Assembly (NCBI RefSeq): GCF_024628725.1
Contig: NZ_CP102411.1
Coordinates: 66,926-130,925, forward strand
From: Ruegeria sp. YS9
Lineage (GTDB): Bacteria > Pseudomonadota > Alphaproteobacteria > Rhodobacterales > Rhodobacteraceae
DNA length: 64,000 nucleotides
Direction: 5' to 3'
The translations under genes were made by a program, and so were the position numbers. The notes beneath the pieces are model-generated. The model worked only from the letters and a program-made list of their open reading frames with translations. It was not told the DNA's origin and made no database searches. Within the stretch, counting starts at the first letter, position 1, and every line of letters begins with the position of its first letter. Shown piece after piece: positions 6,016-39,280 of the stretch.

Positions 6016-7095
6016 ATGAACGACCAAACAACAGTTACTTTTGATGAGGCCAAGGCAGAGCGCTTTGGAGAGCAGATGGTCGACACATTGAATAGTGCCG
6101 CGCTCGCGTTGATGACGTCGATTGGCCACCGTACCAACCTATTTGACGCGCTCGCCGGTTTACCCAACGCGACCTCGAAAACTCTGGCCGAGAAGGCTGG
6201 TTTAGCCGAGCGTTACATTCGTGAATGGCTGGCTGTGATGGTGACGTCAGGCGTGGTCGATTACGACCCCGGAGCCGGAACCTACAATCTTCCGCCTGAA
6301 CACGCGGCGCTGCTTACTCGCGCGGCGGAACCCGACAACATGGCTGTAACCTGCCAGTTCATTGGTGTCATGGCCTCGGTCGAGGAGGACATGGTCGCAC
6401 GGTTTCGAGATGGGGCTGGCACCCATTACCATGACTACTGTCGCTTTCATGAAGTCATGGCAGAAGACAGCGCTCAGCTGGTGGTATCGGCCCTGATAGA
6501 GCACATCCTTCCTGTGGAACCCGGTCTGATCGAGCGTCTTGAACACGGGATTGATGTTCTGGACGTGGGCTGTGGCGCAGGCCGCGCGATGATGGAACTG
6601 GCCCAAGCCTTTCCTGCAAGCCGCTTTATGGGGATCGATCTGTGTGAGGACGCCTTTACTGAAACGCAAGTCTCAGCGGCACGCATGGGTCTGAAGAACC
6701 TGACGTTTCGTGCGCAGGACCTTTCCAAGGTCAAGTCTCTGGGACGTTTCGATCTGATCACAGCGTTTGATGCGGTGCACGATCAGAAAGACCCGCAGGG
6801 ATTGCTGGACCTTGTCTACCGCTCACTCGCCGAGGACGGATTGCTTCTGATGCAAGATATAGGCGGATCCCGGAATCTAGAAACCAACATCCAAAATCCG
6901 TTTGCACCCCTGCTTTATTCCCTGTCGCTGATGCACTGCACGCCAGTGTCAATTGGGCAAGGCGGGCCAGGCCTCGGAGCAATGTGGGGCATTGAGACAG
7001 CACAGGAATACCTCGCCAATGCAGGCTTCGGGCAGGTCGAGACCCATCACCTGCCTCATGATCAACTCAACGCATATTTCTTCGCGCGCCGTTAA
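6016..7095 (+). CDS. SAM-dependent methyltransferase with winged-helix N-terminus
   Basis: A 359-residue protein. The start at 6016 follows CGGAGAAG. Residues about 20-95 resemble the winged-helix dimerisation module found before O-methyltransferase-type catalytic domains, and the Rossmann methylase domain starts near 175 with motif I VLDVGCGAGR (181-190) and GIDLCEDA as the acidic loop. The C-terminus (GMWGIETA, then HDQLNAYFFARR) matches the common family often seen as an uncharacterised methyltransferase. It is followed after 24 bases by a flavin monooxygenase, suggesting a shared small-molecule pathway. Substrate unknown. Confidence 0.8.
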   Translation: MNDQTTVTFDEAKAERFGEQMVDTLNSAALALMTSIGHRTNLFDALAGLPNATSKTLAEKAGLAERYIREWLAVMVTSGVVDYDPGAGTYNLPPEHAALLTRAAEPDNMAVTCQFIGVMASVEEDMVARFRDGAGTHYHDYCRFHEVMAEDSAQLVVSALIEHILPVEPGLIERLEHGIDVLDVGCGAGRAMMELAQAFPASRFMGIDLCEDAFTETQVSAARMGLKNLTFRAQDLSKVKSLGRFDLITAFDAVHDQKDPQGLLDLVYRSLAEDGLLLMQDIGGSRNLETNIQNPFAPLLYSLSLMHCTPVSIGQGGPGLGAMWGIETAQEYLANAGFGQVETHHLPHDQLNAYFFARR

Positions 7096-7119
7096 GCGCA
7101 CTGTTTTTGGAGTTCTCAA

Positions 7120-8340
7120 ATGACATTTCCCCATTCAACAACCGCCATCATTATCGGAGCCGGTCTTTCCGGGTTGGCTGCGGCCTCTGAACTGCGCGCC
7201 CGGAACATTCCGTTCACCATTCTGGAAGCGTCCGACAGGGTGGCCGATCCGTGGCGCGCACGGCATCCGAAGTTGCGGCTGAACATTCATCGCCATTTCG
7301 CCAGCCTTCCCGGATATCACGCACCTCGTAACTCGGACACCTTTTTGCCCCGAGATGCTGTTGTCGATTACCTGAGCGAGTATGCGCGTCAGTTTGCTTC
7401 CGATATCCACTTCGAGACCCGCGTCCTGTCAATCCTCCACGAAGACGACATCTGGCAGATTGAAACCAACAGGGGCACCTATTTCAGCGCTCACCTGATT
7501 GTCGCAACGGGGCGGGAGAAAGTGCCTGATATGCCCGTTTGGCCGGGCATGGAGGAGTTTGGCGGTCAAATCATCCACGCCGCCGACTTCGATGACCCCA
7601 GTGAATACGACGGGAAGAAAGTCCTTGTCATCGGGGCCGGCAACTCGGGCACAGATGTGTTGAATCATTTGTCTCGCTGTAACCCGGCGCAGGTCTGGGT
7701 TTCGGTCAGGCACGGGCCATCGATCCTGCCATCCCGCGTCTTCGGCTTTTCGCTACAGCGGCTGGCCAACCTCTTCACGCTATTCCCCAAATGGTCGCTC
7801 GATCCGATCTTTTCGATCATGCAGCGCGCCTTCTTTGGGAACCTGCGCCGCTATGGCTTGCGCCGCCATGTCATGGGCGGTGGTTCCCGGATGCTGAAAG
7901 ACGGAGTAACCTTCGCTCTGGATGATGGTTTTGTCTCTGCGCTGAAGTCTGGTCGGTTTGCGGCCGTCAGCGAAACCGTCGGCTTTTCACCCCACGCCGT
8001 TGAACTGGCAAGTGGTCGAAAAATCTACCCTGACGTAGTGATCTGCGCCACTGGTTATCGAGCAGATCTGGATGAACTCTTCGGGCACATGGGTGCGTTG
8101 GACAACAAAGGTTACCCACTTCATCCGATGGGTCAGGAAGATCCCCGAAATCCCGGTCTTTGGTTCACAGGGTACGGATTGTTGTTTCAGGGATTTTTCC
8201 ACGCGGCGGGTATCAGCGCAAATCGCATCGCGACCCACATCGAAGCGTGTGCCAACGCGTCGTCCCAAGCTCAATCATCAAGGCACCTTTCACAAGGTGT
8301 AAATCAAGGCGTTCGGTCTTTGGAAGAAGCAGCGCGATGA
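7120..8340 (+). CDS. Flavin-containing monooxygenase
   Basis: A 406-residue class B flavoprotein monooxygenase. The FAD-binding GAGLSGLA lies at 13-20, an FMO-type fingerprint FGGQIIHAADF at 147-157, and the NADPH-binding GAGNSGTD at 172-179; the ATGYR motif appears near residue 310. These enzymes use NADPH and oxygen to oxygenate nucleophilic N or S, or ketones. Gene order places it directly after a methyltransferase and before a DUF1127 protein whose ATG overlaps its stop. Substrate cannot be read from sequence. Confidence 0.85.
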   Translation: MTFPHSTTAIIIGAGLSGLAAASELRARNIPFTILEASDRVADPWRARHPKLRLNIHRHFASLPGYHAPRNSDTFLPRDAVVDYLSEYARQFASDIHFETRVLSILHEDDIWQIETNRGTYFSAHLIVATGREKVPDMPVWPGMEEFGGQIIHAADFDDPSEYDGKKVLVIGAGNSGTDVLNHLSRCNPAQVWVSVRHGPSILPSRVFGFSLQRLANLFTLFPKWSLDPIFSIMQRAFFGNLRRYGLRRHVMGGGSRMLKDGVTFALDDGFVSALKSGRFAAVSETVGFSPHAVELASGRKIYPDVVICATGYRADLDELFGHMGALDNKGYPLHPMGQEDPRNPGLWFTGYGLLFQGFFHAAGISANRIATHIEACANASSQAQSSRHLSQGVNQGVRSLEEAAR

Positions 8341-23569: not shown

Positions 23570-23998
23570 TTACGCGCCGATTTCTTCGTGATCAGTAAGA
23601 CATTCGGAATGATCGCGCAGAACTTCGAGTACACGACAATCCGAGGTGTTGCCGCCACTGCATTCATGCACCATGCGCTCCAGCTCGGTCCGCAACGCTT
23701 CCAGCCGCGCCATTCTTTGCTCAATCTGTTTGAGTTGCCGGCGCGCGATACTGTCGGCTTCATGACAGGGGCGATCCGGATCGTCGGACAAATCAAGCAG
23801 TTCGCGTATCGCCTCAAGCGAAAACCCCAGTTGGCGGGCGTGACGGATAAAAGCCAGGCGATCCAATTCGGTATGGCCATAACGCCGCTGGCCACCTTCG
23901 GTGCGCCCCGGTTCCGGCATAAGTCCGATCTGCTCGTAGTAGCGGATCGTCTGAACCTTGGTTCCGGTCTTTTTTCCAAGCGTTCCGATCGTCAGCAT
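23570..23998 (-). CDS. MerR-family metal regulator (CadR/PbrR/ZntR-like)
   Basis: A 142-residue MerR protein with AAGGAGAC before its ATG. The N-terminal winged helix (IRYYEQIGLMPEP, then GQRRYG) is followed by a dimerisation helix and metal-binding loop. Cysteines C78, C113, C121 and C133 correspond to the divalent-metal sensor pattern; the Cys near 78 is Ser in the copper sensor CueR, so Zn, Cd or Pb is more likely than Cu. It lies between two MerR-type promoters (23503 leftward, 24108 rightward). The near-identical CTCTAG dyads before the P-type ATPase and L,D-transpeptidase genes suggest it controls those too. Confidence 0.85.
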   Translation of the reverse strand: MLTIGTLGKKTGTKVQTIRYYEQIGLMPEPGRTEGGQRRYGHTELDRLAFIRHARQLGFSLEAIRELLDLSDDPDRPCHEADSIARRQLKQIEQRMARLEALRTELERMVHECSGGNTSDCRVLEVLRDHSECLTDHEEIGA

Positions 23999-34427: not shown

Positions 34428-34847
34428 TTAGTGGCCGCTAATGACATCTTTGACGAAAGGCTCGTTGAGCAACGCCGTTAGCAGGGGGCATGAGGCCGCA
34501 CCCTCGGTGCAGGTCTGCACAAGTTCTGCCAGTGCTTGCTCCAACCGTTGGAGGGCGGCGATTTTTGACCTGACGTTGTCGAGATGTCTTGTTGCAACGT
34601 CTTCGACGTCACGACAAGCTTGCTCGGGCGCTTTGGACAATTCGCGAAGTGCGCATGCATCCTGAATGGTAAAGCCAAGATCGCGGCAGCGTTTGATGAA
34701 TCTGAGCTCGGAGATTTCCCGTTCCGTGTATGCGCGGCGTCCCGAGGCGGTTCGACCGGCTTTCTCGACTATGCCTTCCCGTTCGTAATAGCGGATCGTC
34801 TCGACCGACAGACCGATCAATCTCGCCGCTTCGCCAATCGCAATCAT
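34428..34847 (-). CDS. MerR-family metal regulator, second copy
   Basis: A 139-residue MerR protein: winged helix with IRYYEREGIVEKAGR and GRRAY, then the dimer helix. Metal-binding cysteines C78, C113 and C120 are spaced 35 and 7, the spacing published for CadR (C77, C112, C119). Two further cysteines, C54 and C65, lie in the HTH-to-helix region. It is divergent from the MerT-like gene, and a 19-bp-spacer promoter with a perfect CCTGTAG/CTACAGG dyad (34863-34893) lies between them. It should sense a thiophilic metal such as Hg, Cd or Pb. Confidence 0.85.
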   Translation of the reverse strand: MIAIGEAARLIGLSVETIRYYEREGIVEKAGRTASGRRAYTEREISELRFIKRCRDLGFTIQDACALRELSKAPEQACRDVEDVATRHLDNVRSKIAALQRLEQALAELVQTCTEGAASCPLLTALLNEPFVKDVISGH

Positions 34848-34862
34848 GTGATGACCTTTCCC

Positions 34863-34893
34863 TTGAACCTGTAGCTACTACAGGATGCATGTT
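34863..34893 (+). promoter_or_regulatory. MerR-type promoter of the merT-like operon
   Basis: TTGAAC, 19-bp spacer, CATGTT, with the perfect dyad CCTGTAG-cta-CTACAGG (34868-34884). It starts 16 bases from the divergent MerR gene and faces the MerT-like gene. The dyad differs from the CTCTAG set, which suggests a separate regulator, the adjacent MerR. Confidence 0.8.
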
Positions 34894-34992
34894 GTCGGTC
34901 ATGATGTCGAATTTCACAAACCGCGCGAAGCAAGAATCGAGGAAGTCGAACCGGCTTCCGTTCGAGTTCGTCAAAGCCGGAGAAAGCTGACC

Positions 34993-35316
34993 ATGAGCAA
35001 GTTTGTTGGCGCGAGTTTTATTGGATCGTTTACCGCACTTGGCGTTGCGACCTGCTGCATCTTGCCGATGGCCTTGATTTTACTTGGCTTGGGAGGGAGC
35101 TGGCTGGCCGTATTCGGCAAGATCGCCGCCGCGAGTTATTACGTGCTCGGCGGTTCGACGGCCCTGCTGTTTCTCTCTGGCATCGTCGCGTATCGCCGTG
35201 GTTCGCTCGACCGCCTCAAATGGTGGCTGACAGGCAGTTTTGCGTTGACGGCCATCGCTTGGGTTATCGTGCTCAACGAAATCCGAATAAATGATTTCCT
35301 GATAACCTTGATGTGA
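34993..35316 (+). CDS. MerT-like membrane transport protein
   Basis: A 107-residue membrane protein with three hydrophobic helices, preceded by GGAGAAAG. The first helix carries the vicinal cysteine pair C21-C22 (ATCCILPMAL) in the position used by MerT and MerF to pass Hg(II) across the inner membrane. The second cysteine pair of classical MerT, in the cytoplasmic loop, is missing. No merP or merA is nearby. With its adjacent MerR and GDCCVxC protein it forms a three-gene unit for metal movement, direction unknown. Confidence 0.75.
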   Translation: MSKFVGASFIGSFTALGVATCCILPMALILLGLGGSWLAVFGKIAAASYYVLGGSTALLFLSGIVAYRRGSLDRLKWWLTGSFALTAIAWVIVLNEIRINDFLITLM

Positions 35317-35320
35317 CGCC

Positions 35321-35539
35321 ATGAGTGAAAAGCGCCCGAACCTTGTCAGCACGATCATCTGCCCGGAATGTGGACATTCAAGGCCTGAAACGATGCCAAC
35401 AGACGCGTGCCAGTGGTTCTACGAATGCACATCTTGCGGAAAAGTCCTGAAGCCACTTCCCGGCGATTGCTGCGTCTACTGTTCCTACGGATCGGCTCCA
35501 TGCCCGCCAATTCAGGCGGGCTACAAATGCTGCGGTTGA
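35321..35539 (+). CDS. GDCCVxC-domain protein
   Basis: A 72-residue protein containing 11 cysteines. The C-terminal half has GDCCVYCSYGSAPCPPIQ, the signature of the GDCCVxC family, whose members are often selenoproteins with Sec in this motif; here every position is Cys. Two CxxC pairs (14/17 and 36/39) suggest a zinc ribbon. The family travels with MerT-like genes and is thought to bind or transfer mercury or related metals; a biochemical role is not established. It begins five bases after the MerT-like stop and ends before a strong terminator. Confidence 0.8.
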   Translation: MSEKRPNLVSTIICPECGHSRPETMPTDACQWFYECTSCGKVLKPLPGDCCVYCSYGSAPCPPIQAGYKCCG

Positions 35540-36297: not shown

Positions 36298-36522
36298 TTA
36301 CAGGGCCGACTTGTCCGTCACCCTCCGATACTCATCAGATATGGCTTTCTGGGCGACGCAGGGATTTCTCACAATGATCTGACGCAAACTCTGCTCGGAA
36401 ACGGAACCCTCGCTCTCCTTTTTTCGCTGCACCTGCCGCTCTGGGTCCTGCTTGGCAATAACCCGGTTCGCAAGCAACTCCGCTACCCTCCGTTCAAGGC
36501 CGGAATTGCGCCTATTTCTCAC
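36298..36522 (-). CDS. Possible small hypothetical protein after merR
   Basis: A 74-residue frame starting GTG inside the last codons of the third MerR gene (11-base overlap). It is charged and helical in look, without membrane or metal motifs. Composition is acceptable, but the ribosome site is weak and I know no homologue. It may simply be open by chance. Confidence 0.3.
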   Translation of the reverse strand: MRNRRNSGLERRVAELLANRVIAKQDPERQVQRKKESEGSVSEQSLRQIIVRNPCVAQKAISDEYRRVTDKSAL

Positions 36523-36925
36523 TGCTGCGTTCTATGGCACCCACGATCGAACAGTTCTGAATTCCACCACGCCCCGGACACGCCGCGATCAGCTCGTCCA
36601 GATTGTTCCTCAACCGTGCAAGCCCGTCGATCCGTTCCTGAATTTCGTCCCGCTTTTTGCGCGCTCTGGCCTGCATCGCGACGCACTCGGTATTTGGTGC
36701 CGTGCGCAACTCCAGAATTTCCGCGATTTCTGCCAGCGAAAATCCGAGCTTCTTAGCGCCGGATATGAATTTCAGCCGCCAAAGCGTGTCACCACCATAG
36801 TCCCGCGCGCCGCCGTCAATTGGGCGCGGCGGCTGAGTGACAAGGCCCTTCCTTTCATAAAATCGGATCGTCTCGACGCCTATCCCGGTCTCGCGCGCGG
36901 CCTGGCCGATCTTGAGTGGTTGCAT
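36512..36925 (-). CDS. merR: Mercury-type MerR regulator
   Basis: A 137-residue MerR protein (IRFYERKGLVTQPPRP winged helix). The three cysteines C81, C116 and C125 are spaced 35 and 9, exactly the spacing of the Hg(II) ligands C82, C117 and C126 of Tn501 MerR and different from the other two MerR proteins here. The divergent promoter at 36952 carries a dyad nearly the same as the mer operator. Yet the genes it faces are not merTPA but a UPF0104 protein and an MFS transporter. The protein therefore looks like a true mercury sensor with a novel output. Confidence 0.85.
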   Translation of the reverse strand: MQPLKIGQAARETGIGVETIRFYERKGLVTQPPRPIDGGARDYGGDTLWRLKFISGAKKLGFSLAEIAEILELRTAPNTECVAMQARARKKRDEIQERIDGLARLRNNLDELIAACPGRGGIQNCSIVGAIERSSEK

Positions 36926-36951
36926 CGCGGTCTCCCTCCGTCACCGTCATC

Positions 36952-36982
36952 TTGACACCGTATCATGATACGGAGGTTAAAA
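36952..36982 (+). promoter_or_regulatory. mer-like operator/promoter of the UPF0104-MFS operon
   Basis: TTGACA, 19-bp spacer, TTAAAA. The spacer begins with the perfect 16-bp palindrome CCGTATCATGATACGG (36958-36973). The published Tn501 mer operator has arms CCGTAC and GTACGG around ATGA, so the half-sites and centre agree. It lies 26 bases from the divergent merR gene. Confidence 0.85.
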
Positions 36983-37014
36983 CATTGGGGTCTTGGTAGT
37001 TGCGAGGATGTCAA

Positions 37015-38043
37015 ATGCGGACCTTCCTGAAACGGTGGCTGCTGCCGATATTCGGCTCCGCCCTGGCGCTCTATCTGGTGTTTGCGCTCTACGGCAGCCT
37101 CGATTTTGCGCTGTTTCTGCAGGGCCTGCGCGGAGCCAACATGTTCTGGATCGCGATTCTTGCCGCCACCATCCTGCTGGAGCAGCTGATGAGCGGCTGG
37201 AAGTGGCGGCAGATCCTGTTCGACGTGAAACCGGTCGGCACCCTGCGGCTGACGGGGGCGCTACTGGCAGGTTATGGCGCAAATGTCCTTGTCCCGCTCG
37301 GCATCAGCCCGCTGGTCCGGGCCTGGCTGGTTGCCCGGCTCGACCGCCTGAAGATGGCGACCGTGCTTGCAACCGCGATCATCGCCCGGTTCCTCGACGG
37401 CGTCGTTTTCGCCCTTTTTGCCGGAGCGGTGGCCGCCGCCGGCCAGATTCCACAGATCGAGGGTGACCTGCGGCTGGGATTGAGCGTTGCGGGCCTGTTG
37501 AACCTGATGCTTTTCGGCAGCCTGCTTTGGGTTCTGTTCCGGTTCCGCGCGTCACTTCTCAGCGAGGACCCTCTGGTCTGCCGACTCTTCGACTGGGCTG
37601 CCGCCCGCATCGGGGCCGATGGCGCGTATCTGCGCACCGCGCTCGGTGAAGGGATCGTCTGGCCACAGGCACGGGCCCGCCGCATCGCCGCCATTGCCGC
37701 AGCCATTGCGGGTAAGCTGGTGGCGACAACCCATTTCCTGTGGGCCGGGCTGGCGGTTGGCGTGGTGCTGAGCGCGTGGGATTACCTGTTCTTGATGGTG
37801 TTTGCCGGGTTCGCCATGGTTCTGGGTCGTTTCGTGCGCATCCCGGCGAGCTTTGTCTTTGGGGCGGGGTTCGCGCTCAAGGTGCTTGGCGTTCCGGACG
37901 AAACCGCCCTTCTGATGATCCTGTTCAACTATGTGCTGACGATCCTTCTGGTGGTCGGGATCGGCCTGACGGTGTTGTGGCAGAGCGGCATCGACATCCG
38001 CCGCGCCCGGGCGGAGGCAGAGGCGGCGAATGGCAAGGCGTAA
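37015..38043 (+). CDS. UPF0104 / lysylphosphatidylglycerol synthase-like membrane protein
   Basis: A 342-residue integral membrane protein with about eight helices, of the UPF0104 family related to the flippase half of MprF. Family landmarks are LLEQLMSGWKWRQIL and LLAGYGANVLVPLG near residues 55-105. The ATG at 37015 has GAGGA upstream; TTG at 37000 is less likely. There is no synthase domain. Members are thought to move lipids or glycolipids. It is driven by a mercury-type promoter and overlaps the MFS gene by 14 bases. It is visibly GC-richer than flanking genes. Confidence 0.75.
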   Translation: MRTFLKRWLLPIFGSALALYLVFALYGSLDFALFLQGLRGANMFWIAILAATILLEQLMSGWKWRQILFDVKPVGTLRLTGALLAGYGANVLVPLGISPLVRAWLVARLDRLKMATVLATAIIARFLDGVVFALFAGAVAAAGQIPQIEGDLRLGLSVAGLLNLMLFGSLLWVLFRFRASLLSEDPLVCRLFDWAAARIGADGAYLRTALGEGIVWPQARARRIAAIAAAIAGKLVATTHFLWAGLAVGVVLSAWDYLFLMVFAGFAMVLGRFVRIPASFVFGAGFALKVLGVPDETALLMILFNYVLTILLVVGIGLTVLWQSGIDIRRARAEAEAANGKA

Positions 38044-39280
38044 TCCCGAAGACACGAGATTTTGGCGCATCGCCGGTGCTGGTGCGGTGTTTCAGGGCGG
38101 GTCGGCGGCGGTGGACAGCGCGACGGTGGTGGCCAGTCTGGTGCATATGCTGACCGGTAGCGCGCTGGCCGTGGGCTATGCCAGCACGGTCCTGCGTCTT
38201 GGCTGGCTGCTGCCCCAGTTCGCGGTGGGCTACCTCGCCGAGCGCACCGATCGGCGCATGCCGTTCTACGCCCTTGGTGCCTATGGGCGGGCGATCACGG
38301 TCGCGATGATCGGTATGCTTCTGTGGTGGGGGGCCGACTGGCCGCAGGTCGATTGGCCTCCGGTTCCGCTGGCGCTCGGGATGCTGGGGCTGTGGACAAT
38401 CTACGCCTTTGTCAGCGGCGTGGTCGCGGTGCCCTACAACGACATCGTCGGCCGGGCGATCCCGTCCGAGCGCCGCAGCCGTATGTTGGCCTGGCGCTTT
38501 TTCGGCGGCGGTGTTCTGGCGGTTCTGGTGGCGGGCGTTCTGCGACTTGCGCTCGACGTGATGCTGCCGCTCAGGGCCTATGCGCTGATCTTCTGGCTCG
38601 GCGCGGTGCTGATGATCGTCTCTGCGACGCTTTTTGTCGCCGCGGGTGAGCCCGCTACCGCTGCAAGGGCGCCACGGGACCGCCCGGCCAATCTGTCTGG
38701 ATTTCTGCGCGAAGGGGTCTCGACACTACAACAGGATCGCCGGTTCCGGCTGTTCCTGATCTTCCAATGGCTTGGCGCAGCGACGCTGATGGCGTTGCCG
38801 TTCTATGTCGTTGCCGCCAGCCGCAGCGGCCTCGGGGCGGCGGATGTCGGAACGCTGTTGGCGGCGCAGACCGTCGGCGCGCTGGCCTCGAATCCGGTCT
38901 GGGGCCGTATCGGCGACCGGATGGGCAAATTGCGCCTGCTGGGGATAGTGGCACTGGTGCGTCTCGGACCTCCGGTGCTGGTGTTGCTGCTTGTGGTCTC
39001 GAGTTCGGGGCTGACCGGTTTCGCGGCGCTGTTCTTCCTGATCGGCGTGATGATGAACGGGGTGACCATCGGCTATCTCGGCTACCTGCTGGAGATCTCG
39101 CCCGACGACCGCCGTCCGGCCTATTCCGCGTGGTTTAACAGCTTTGCGGCCCCGGCGGCGCTGGCGCCACTTGTGGGCGGCGTGGTGGTCAGCATAATCG
39201 CCATCGAAGCCGTGTTCATCGCTGCGATCCTGGCCGCGCTGGGTCAGGTCGTGATCGCGGCGCGGCTGTCCCAAGTTTGA
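38030..39280 (+). CDS. MFS transporter
   Basis: A 416-residue membrane protein with about twelve helices. The loop between helices 2 and 3 reads GYLAERTDRRMPFY, a variant of the MFS motif A, and the second half repeats it as GRIGDRMGKLRLL. It overlaps the UPF0104 gene by 14 bases, so both are translated together under the mercury-type MerR promoter. It could export a metal complex or a protective metabolite; no known mercury transporter of this family comes to mind. GC content is as high as that of its partner. Confidence 0.8.
   Translation: MARRNPEDTRFWRIAGAGAVFQGGSAAVDSATVVASLVHMLTGSALAVGYASTVLRLGWLLPQFAVGYLAERTDRRMPFYALGAYGRAITVAMIGMLLWWGADWPQVDWPPVPLALGMLGLWTIYAFVSGVVAVPYNDIVGRAIPSERRSRMLAWRFFGGGVLAVLVAGVLRLALDVMLPLRAYALIFWLGAVLMIVSATLFVAAGEPATAARAPRDRPANLSGFLREGVSTLQQDRRFRLFLIFQWLGAATLMALPFYVVAASRSGLGAADVGTLLAAQTVGALASNPVWGRIGDRMGKLRLLGIVALVRLGPPVLVLLLVVSSSGLTGFAALFFLIGVMMNGVTIGYLGYLLEISPDDRRPAYSAWFNSFAAPAALAPLVGGVVVSIIAIEAVFIAAILAALGQVVIAARLSQV

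Follow-up and report, generated by a model that had tools for sequence, protein, structure and literature searches.

In a 64,000-nucleotide stretch of the Ruegeria sp. YS9 genome (the window; contig NZ_CP102411.1), a gene for a MerR-family regulator lies divergent to two overlapping membrane-protein genes, one of the UPF0104 family and one of the major facilitator superfamily (MFS), with a mer-type promoter between them. We interpret this arrangement, with a probability of roughly 0.5, as an autonomous metal-stress membrane module switched by MerR, in which the UPF0104 protein would be the flippase half and the MFS protein the exporter half. On this reading it probably responds to Hg(II), has repeatedly been recruited to mer loci and can also exist where merA is absent. 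The anatomy of the module, the conservation of its operator, gene overlap and regulator cysteines, and its physical association with mer operons across several lineages are direct observations. Its parts in the window are:

36512 to 36925, minus strand: MerR-family metalloregulator with Cys81, Cys116 and Cys125
36952 to 36983, plus strand: mer-type promoter/operator, with TTGACA at 36952-36957, the dyad CCGTATCATGATACGG at 36958-36973 and the -10 element TAAAAC at 36978-36983 (spacer N20)
37015 to 38043, plus strand: UPF0104/PF03706 membrane protein with a predicted MprF-flippase-like fold, without a synthase domain
38030 to 39280, plus strand: MFS transporter, overlapping UPF0104
38030 to 38043, plus strand: the UPF0104/MFS overlap of 14 nt

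A sequence-only reading of this DNA had proposed a two-gene membrane module answering Hg(II). Its coordinates were borne out when we read the sequence and open reading frames directly, and the synteny that it suggested looking for turned out to be real; the cysteine spacing that it took as a mark of mercury lost that value, and its interpretation is supported in part.

Operator, gene pair and recurrence

The dyad, already described as a perfect palindrome within a mer-type promoter, was read at the same place and occurs once in the window, where 0.04 occurrences are expected from dinucleotide shuffles; a chance origin of the motif was thus ruled out. Across the source genome (4.3 Mb, 6 contigs), TTGACN+CCGTAN6TACGG had a single site without mismatch. 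With up to two mismatches there were six sites versus nine for a backward control, so that only the perfect site is meaningful. The promoter had been proposed as TTGACA-N19-TTAAAA (TTAAAA at 36977-36982). TTGACA and the over-long spacer stood, but comparison of 21 loci favored N20-TAAAAC, which has five bases in common with the N19 hexamer: the best plain match to TATAAT was at N20 alone in 18 of these loci, tied between N20 and N18 in two, at N18 in one (L028) and never at N19.

A scan of genome contigs yielded the 63 loci of our comparison set (loci are cited by L numbers), in which the merR-UPF0104-MFS synteny recurs; its uniqueness to this sequence was therefore ruled out. We scanned them strictly for the operator (TTGAC[ACT], then the dyad directly or after one base, with at most one mismatch per arm), a search modeled on the window's own site and blind to other operator types. 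It gave 24 sites in 23 of the 63 loci, versus a mean of 0.2 in mononucleotide-shuffled loci. The operator lay upstream of UPF0104 on the same strand in 21/63 loci, or 16/58 when the near-identical L012-L016 and L068 were counted as one; these came from eight named genera (Ruegeria, Leisingera, Roseovarius, Marinovum, Sulfitobacter, Roseivivax, Palleronia and Halovulum) plus other records. The remaining three sites (one in L071, two in L073) lie on the downstream side of the pair. In an Escherichia coli plasmid (L086), the scan also recovered the operator in the interval from merR to merT, an annotated mer operator region with the same promoter layout as the window.

The 14-base overlap of the two membrane-protein genes, also noted before, was exact, with the MFS start in frame, in 24 of 31 pairs (five near-identical Ruegeria loci being left out), and the MFS gene is probably translationally coupled to UPF0104. 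An MFS gene followed within 800 nt on the same strand in 36 of the 61 loci that had a UPF0104 open reading frame. All seven proteins compared in Ruegeria sp. R14_0 (L012) were identical to those of the window, and Ruegeria sp. THAF33 carries the same island on a 214-kb plasmid typed as mobilizable. The UPF0104 protein of L029, an Acidimicrobiaceae metagenome-assembled genome (MAG), is identical to that of an Indioceanicola plasmid, through either plasmid transfer or mis-binning.

The regulator and its inducer

In the MerR family, metal binding twists on a promoter whose spacer is over-long. In the window, a dimeric MerR of Tn21/Tn501 type would keep such a promoter off from a single operator, and the binding of a thiophilic ion, most likely Hg(II), would twist it on. 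The best PDB match of the window MerR was 5crl, a mercuric resistance operon regulatory protein (6.6e-26). Its Cys81/116/125 align with Cys82/117/126 of Tn501 MerR, the three Hg ligands according to the available part of PMC5027573, and cysteines are kept at these positions in the operator-bearing MerRs upstream of UPF0104. The spacing of 35 and 9 is indeed present, as the sequence-only reading had it; however, it is not decisive for the metal because an annotated Cd(II)/Pb(II)-responsive CadR (L104; Cys79/114/123) has it too, a counter-example that ruled out proof of Hg specificity by spacing alone. The operator half-site says more about the metal: it is CCGTA in Tn21-type and Pseudomonas mer units and CTATAG in CadR, and the mer operons of L021 and L029 have CTGTAG. 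In a tree of 38 chosen MerR rows (near-identical ones omitted), those from the UPF0104 side fell, with weak support, among the Hg-responsive MerRs of Tn21, Burkholderia and Pseudomonas, and a Staphylococcus Hg-MerR and another L071 MerR fell on the same side with long, uncertain branches. The L071 row placed among the UPF0104-side ones (6836-7243) is better read as a mer-operon regulator, since it is divergent to the merT/merA of its own locus.

The regulator might instead sense another thiophilic ion or an organomercurial, the module then being a general response to soft metals and a frequent companion of mer genes. The CadR triad would fit this, as would the CueR-like MerR used in L047. Where a mer operon lies next to the module (L029) or holds it (L021), the operator that goes with its MerR is a different one, CTGTAG-N3-CTACAG; a further sensor, such as the one in L029, would then be superfluous if it did not detect something else. 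Moreover, a Pro follows Cys116 in the window MerR where Tn501 has His118, whose Ala mutant loses activation (PMC5027573, available part), but a Staphylococcus MerR annotated as Hg(II)-responsive also has Pro after the same cysteine. Since the half-site is that of Tn21-type mer units and not that of CadR, and the tree places these regulators with Hg-MerRs, we consider such a broader response rather improbable and Hg(II) the probable inducer. Two MerRs also stand side by side in L029 and on the Indioceanicola plasmid; their operators differ in L029, and the module would therefore be wired separately, giving either graded responses to one ion or responses to two different inducers.

The membrane pair and its possible substrate

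The UPF0104 protein (342 aa) matched PF03706 (LPG_synthase_TM) with 53.5 bits (cut-off 33.4) over profile positions 2-302 of 302; this was its only domain, with no C-terminal lysyl-phosphatidylglycerol synthase domain. Its structural model, of low confidence (mean predicted local distance difference test score, pLDDT, 61; shallow alignment), matched MprF residues about 44-272. Its partner was recognized as MFS by both fold and Pfam. The fold search indicated a general MFS fold and no substrate, with OxlT, SLC37A4 and SotB ranking first, and a PDB sequence search gave a weak NorA match for the MFS protein and nothing for UPF0104. Made together through translational coupling, the two proteins would probably act as a single unit, whose flippase half is of MprF type and whose exporter half is the MFS protein; this unit would clear the inner membrane or the cytoplasm of an amphiphilic substrate. 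We give export or flipping an even chance of being the activity. The most plausible substrate would be a thiol or lipid adduct that carries Hg, or else a lipid damaged by Hg, and we propose an adduct tentatively.

A third gene, resembling gamma-glutamyl cyclotransferases (PF13772/PF06094 in the three members checked), follows 19 of the 36 pairs and mostly keeps the motifs FA[YF]GANM and [ST]EG, which we take to be catalytic; in these many relatives, its product would first trim a glutathione-type adduct. Two GGACT-like paralogues, one of them of another subtype, occur near the pair in L054, L060, L071, L072 and L073. In seven loci (L029, L030, L033, L037, L039, L083 and L099), a DUF7482-type protein is encoded between MerR/operator and UPF0104 (identified by Pfam in L030 and by similarity in the others).

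Alternatively, the pair could serve membrane-lipid homeostasis, UPF0104 flipping a phospholipid or aminolipid and the MFS protein moving a lysolipid, with the metal merely signaling envelope damage. The MprF fold match and PF03706 membership agree with this, as do MFSD2A and SPNS2 among the many MFS fold matches and an FA_hydroxylase-type gene near the pair or UPF0104 in four loci (L019, L021, L033 and L040; Pfam PF04116 in L021). However, the MFS fold matches are unspecific, UPF0104 occurs in L037 without a following MFS match, and the operon in the window has no lipid enzyme, so we regard lipid homeostasis as unlikely.

Linkage to mercury resistance and known systems

Within flanks of up to 6 kb, merA was present in six of the 63 loci (L019, L021, L029, L037, L038 and L071), while the chance for a random gene to lie that close to a merA is, by rough arithmetic, 0.0003. 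MerA over the NCBIfam cut-off was verified in L021, L029, L037 and L071, and MerF in L053. Both L019 and L021 read merR, then merT-P-F-A, one small membrane gene and UPF0104-MFS, with no second MerR seen; L037 and L038 had no MFS match near UPF0104. The Indioceanicola profundi plasmid carries the run merR, merT, a hypothetical (merP-like) gene, merF, merA, FAD oxidoreductase, MerR, a hypothetical (DUF7482-like) gene, UPF0104, MFS and GGCT, and another genome outside the 63 loci has merR beside merF-merA-UPF0104-MFS. A second pyridine-nucleotide-disulfide oxidoreductase directly follows merA in L029 (307.8 bits, below the MerA cut-off), L037, L038, L083 and L099.

At the genome level, MerA over cut-off was found in 32/45 UPF0104-holding genomes (L013-L016, L040, L052, L054-L057, L060, L063, L065, L066, L068-L070 and L074 left out; L037, L075 and L099 are apparently one genome, with the same MerA coordinates, and G639 is apparently the genome of L073), 34/385 genomes of the class and 33/292 of the order. 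The 45-versus-385 comparison (p=7.5e-20) mixes taxa and related, non-independent genomes, and we do not rely on it. Within the class sample, 3/6 UPF0104 genomes had MerA versus 31/379 others (one-sided p=0.01). MerB was detected in 2/22 genomes and in 0/6 of the same genus. R14_0, with an island identical to that of the window, has MerA over cut-off on another contig of its genome (G292), so Ruegeria is not uniformly merA-free. Linkage to mer is strong at the locus level and across lineages, but the module is also found in genomes lacking merA.

Known mer systems import Hg(II) and then reduce it. A role of the pair in mercury uptake for MerA, replacing MerT/MerP, would suit its position directly after merA in L098 or one gene further on in L019/L021, but these same loci have MerF or MerT. 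In addition, no Cys or His position reaches half of the MFS alignment rows, and six same-genus genomes with the module, including that of the window, have no MerA, so that uptake there would be harmful. We find this role highly improbable. Where merA is absent, the Hg-switched MprF-fold flippase and MFS exporter might instead be the effector itself, a second, reductase-free resistance route expelling mercury as an amphiphilic adduct and backing up MerA elsewhere, which we offer as a tentative proposal.

Several observations weigh against the metal-stress module that we favor. The strict scan found no operator in 40/63 loci, and Ruegeria intermedia (L017) kept UPF0104-MFS beside a degraded copy of the operator, with no MerR match across the locus; no MFS gene followed within 800 nt on the same strand in 25/61 loci, some cut by contig ends. 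The window MerR scored 114 bits against TIGR02051, under the equivalog cut-off of 150.85 (at 109.6, the MerR next to merF-merA in L098 falls short as well, and L071 passes at 156.1), and the tree separated Hg-MerRs from the others only weakly (support 77/84). MerRs near UPF0104 in L044, L047 and L072 lack the first cysteine, and that of L047 scored best as CueR, with a dyad of another half-site. Foldseek gave no match for the UPF0104 model at E<=0.001, the MprF likeness appearing only in a second look with VIA. The genome of the window has neither MerA nor a PF13772 (AIG2_2/GGACT) match, so neither is needed there. In a UPF0104 tree omitting L075-L081 and the near-identical L013-L016, and scoring L071 and L073 as operator-bearing although their operators stand downstream of the pair, the operator-or-mer label needed 11 changes versus 19.7 when shuffled; this state thus appears clustered, yet gained or lost repeatedly. 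MerA did not co-occur with UPF0104 in the order sample (1/7 versus 32/285 others, p=0.57) because the six same-genus genomes have the module without it, and six MAG loci with UPF0104-MFS(-GGACT), some of them short (L041, L046, L049, L052, L054 and L060), had none of the mer genes sought.

From left to right, the window encodes a second MerR (minus), MerT-like and GDCCVxC proteins (plus), DUF411 (minus), the module MerR (minus), the mer-type promoter, UPF0104 and MFS (plus), and DUF4405. The neighbors, about 1-2.5 kb left of the module, are:

34428 to 34847, minus strand: second MerR, Cys78/113/120, spacing 35 and 7
34863 to 34884, plus strand: candidate operator of the second MerR, TTGAAC then CTGTAG-N3-CTACAG
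34993 to 35316, plus strand: MerT-like membrane protein, start placed from the L082 annotation
35321 to 35539, plus strand: GDCCVxC Cys-rich protein (104.9 bits, cut-off 40)

The MerT-like protein, beside the second MerR, scored 23.4 bits (cut-off 32.9), under the Pfam and NCBIfam cut-offs. The mer operons of L021 and L029 are preceded by the same CTGTAG/CTACAG arms, and the GDCCVxC family recurs in merF-GDCCVxC-UPF0104-MFS (L053) and merR-merT-merP-GDCCVxC (L085). By its predicted genes, 34428-35539 is a mini mer-like unit without merA. The sequence-only reading was right that merA and merB are missing (no MerA over cut-off and no MerB in the genome; merP was not searched genome-wide), but it did not mention these neighbors, which rule out a window free of mer-like genes. 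The same island holds a heavy-metal P-type ATPase (TIGR01525, 28664-30997) and a third heavy-metal MerR (23570-23998; best NCBIfam score CueR, below cut-off) beside SCO1-like, DsbB/DsbA-like and PCuAC-like genes (named by eye).

The recurrence of the module beside mercury-resistance genes points to an accessory part of bacterial metal resistance that has so far gone unrecognized. UPF0104 and MFS are not among the mer genes named in the available part of Boyd and Barkay 2012 (PMC3466566), where neither word occurs, and the terms MFS, UPF0104, flippase and cyclotransferase are absent from that of Christakis 2021 (PMC8261052). Our search of an open library of 5.39 million papers, outside which most subscription journals lie, found no paper linking UPF0104, merR and mercury, a flippase-like domain and mercury, lysylphosphatidylglycerol and mercuric, or MerR, major facilitator superfamily and mercury operon in roseobacter. 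Mercury resistance would gain an effector of a different kind in such a recurrent MerR-switched flippase/exporter module, and the scoring of merA-less marine genomes for mercury tolerance would be altered. For UPF0104, a family that is poorly understood, the module poses a concrete substrate question that can be tested.

Compared with the regulation of the Tn501/Tn21 mer operons, the module is alike in the Cys triad, the divergent merR and the TTGAC-CCGTA..TACGG promoter geometry, with a spacer of 20 in our comparative reading versus 19 in the mer operator of L086. It differs in that its effectors are UPF0104 and MFS, in a genome without MerA; by its switch, the unit in the window would work like a mer unit, yet it is no mer operon because merA is absent. 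Like the mer accessory genes (merT, P, C, E, F, G and B), it occurs repeatedly in linkage with merA and stands under a MerR of mer type. With the MprF flippase domain, UPF0104 shares PF03706 over the full profile and a predicted fold, whereas its 342 aa include no lysyl-phosphatidylglycerol synthase domain and its partner is an MFS protein. CadR/CueR efflux units also join one MerR-family switch to one export function, but their neighbor is a P-type ATPase in two reference records and the CadR operator half-site differs from that of the module. Finally, ArsJ-type MFS proteins export a metalloid adduct and are encoded beside the enzyme that shapes it, an export to which we liken the module as an idea only.

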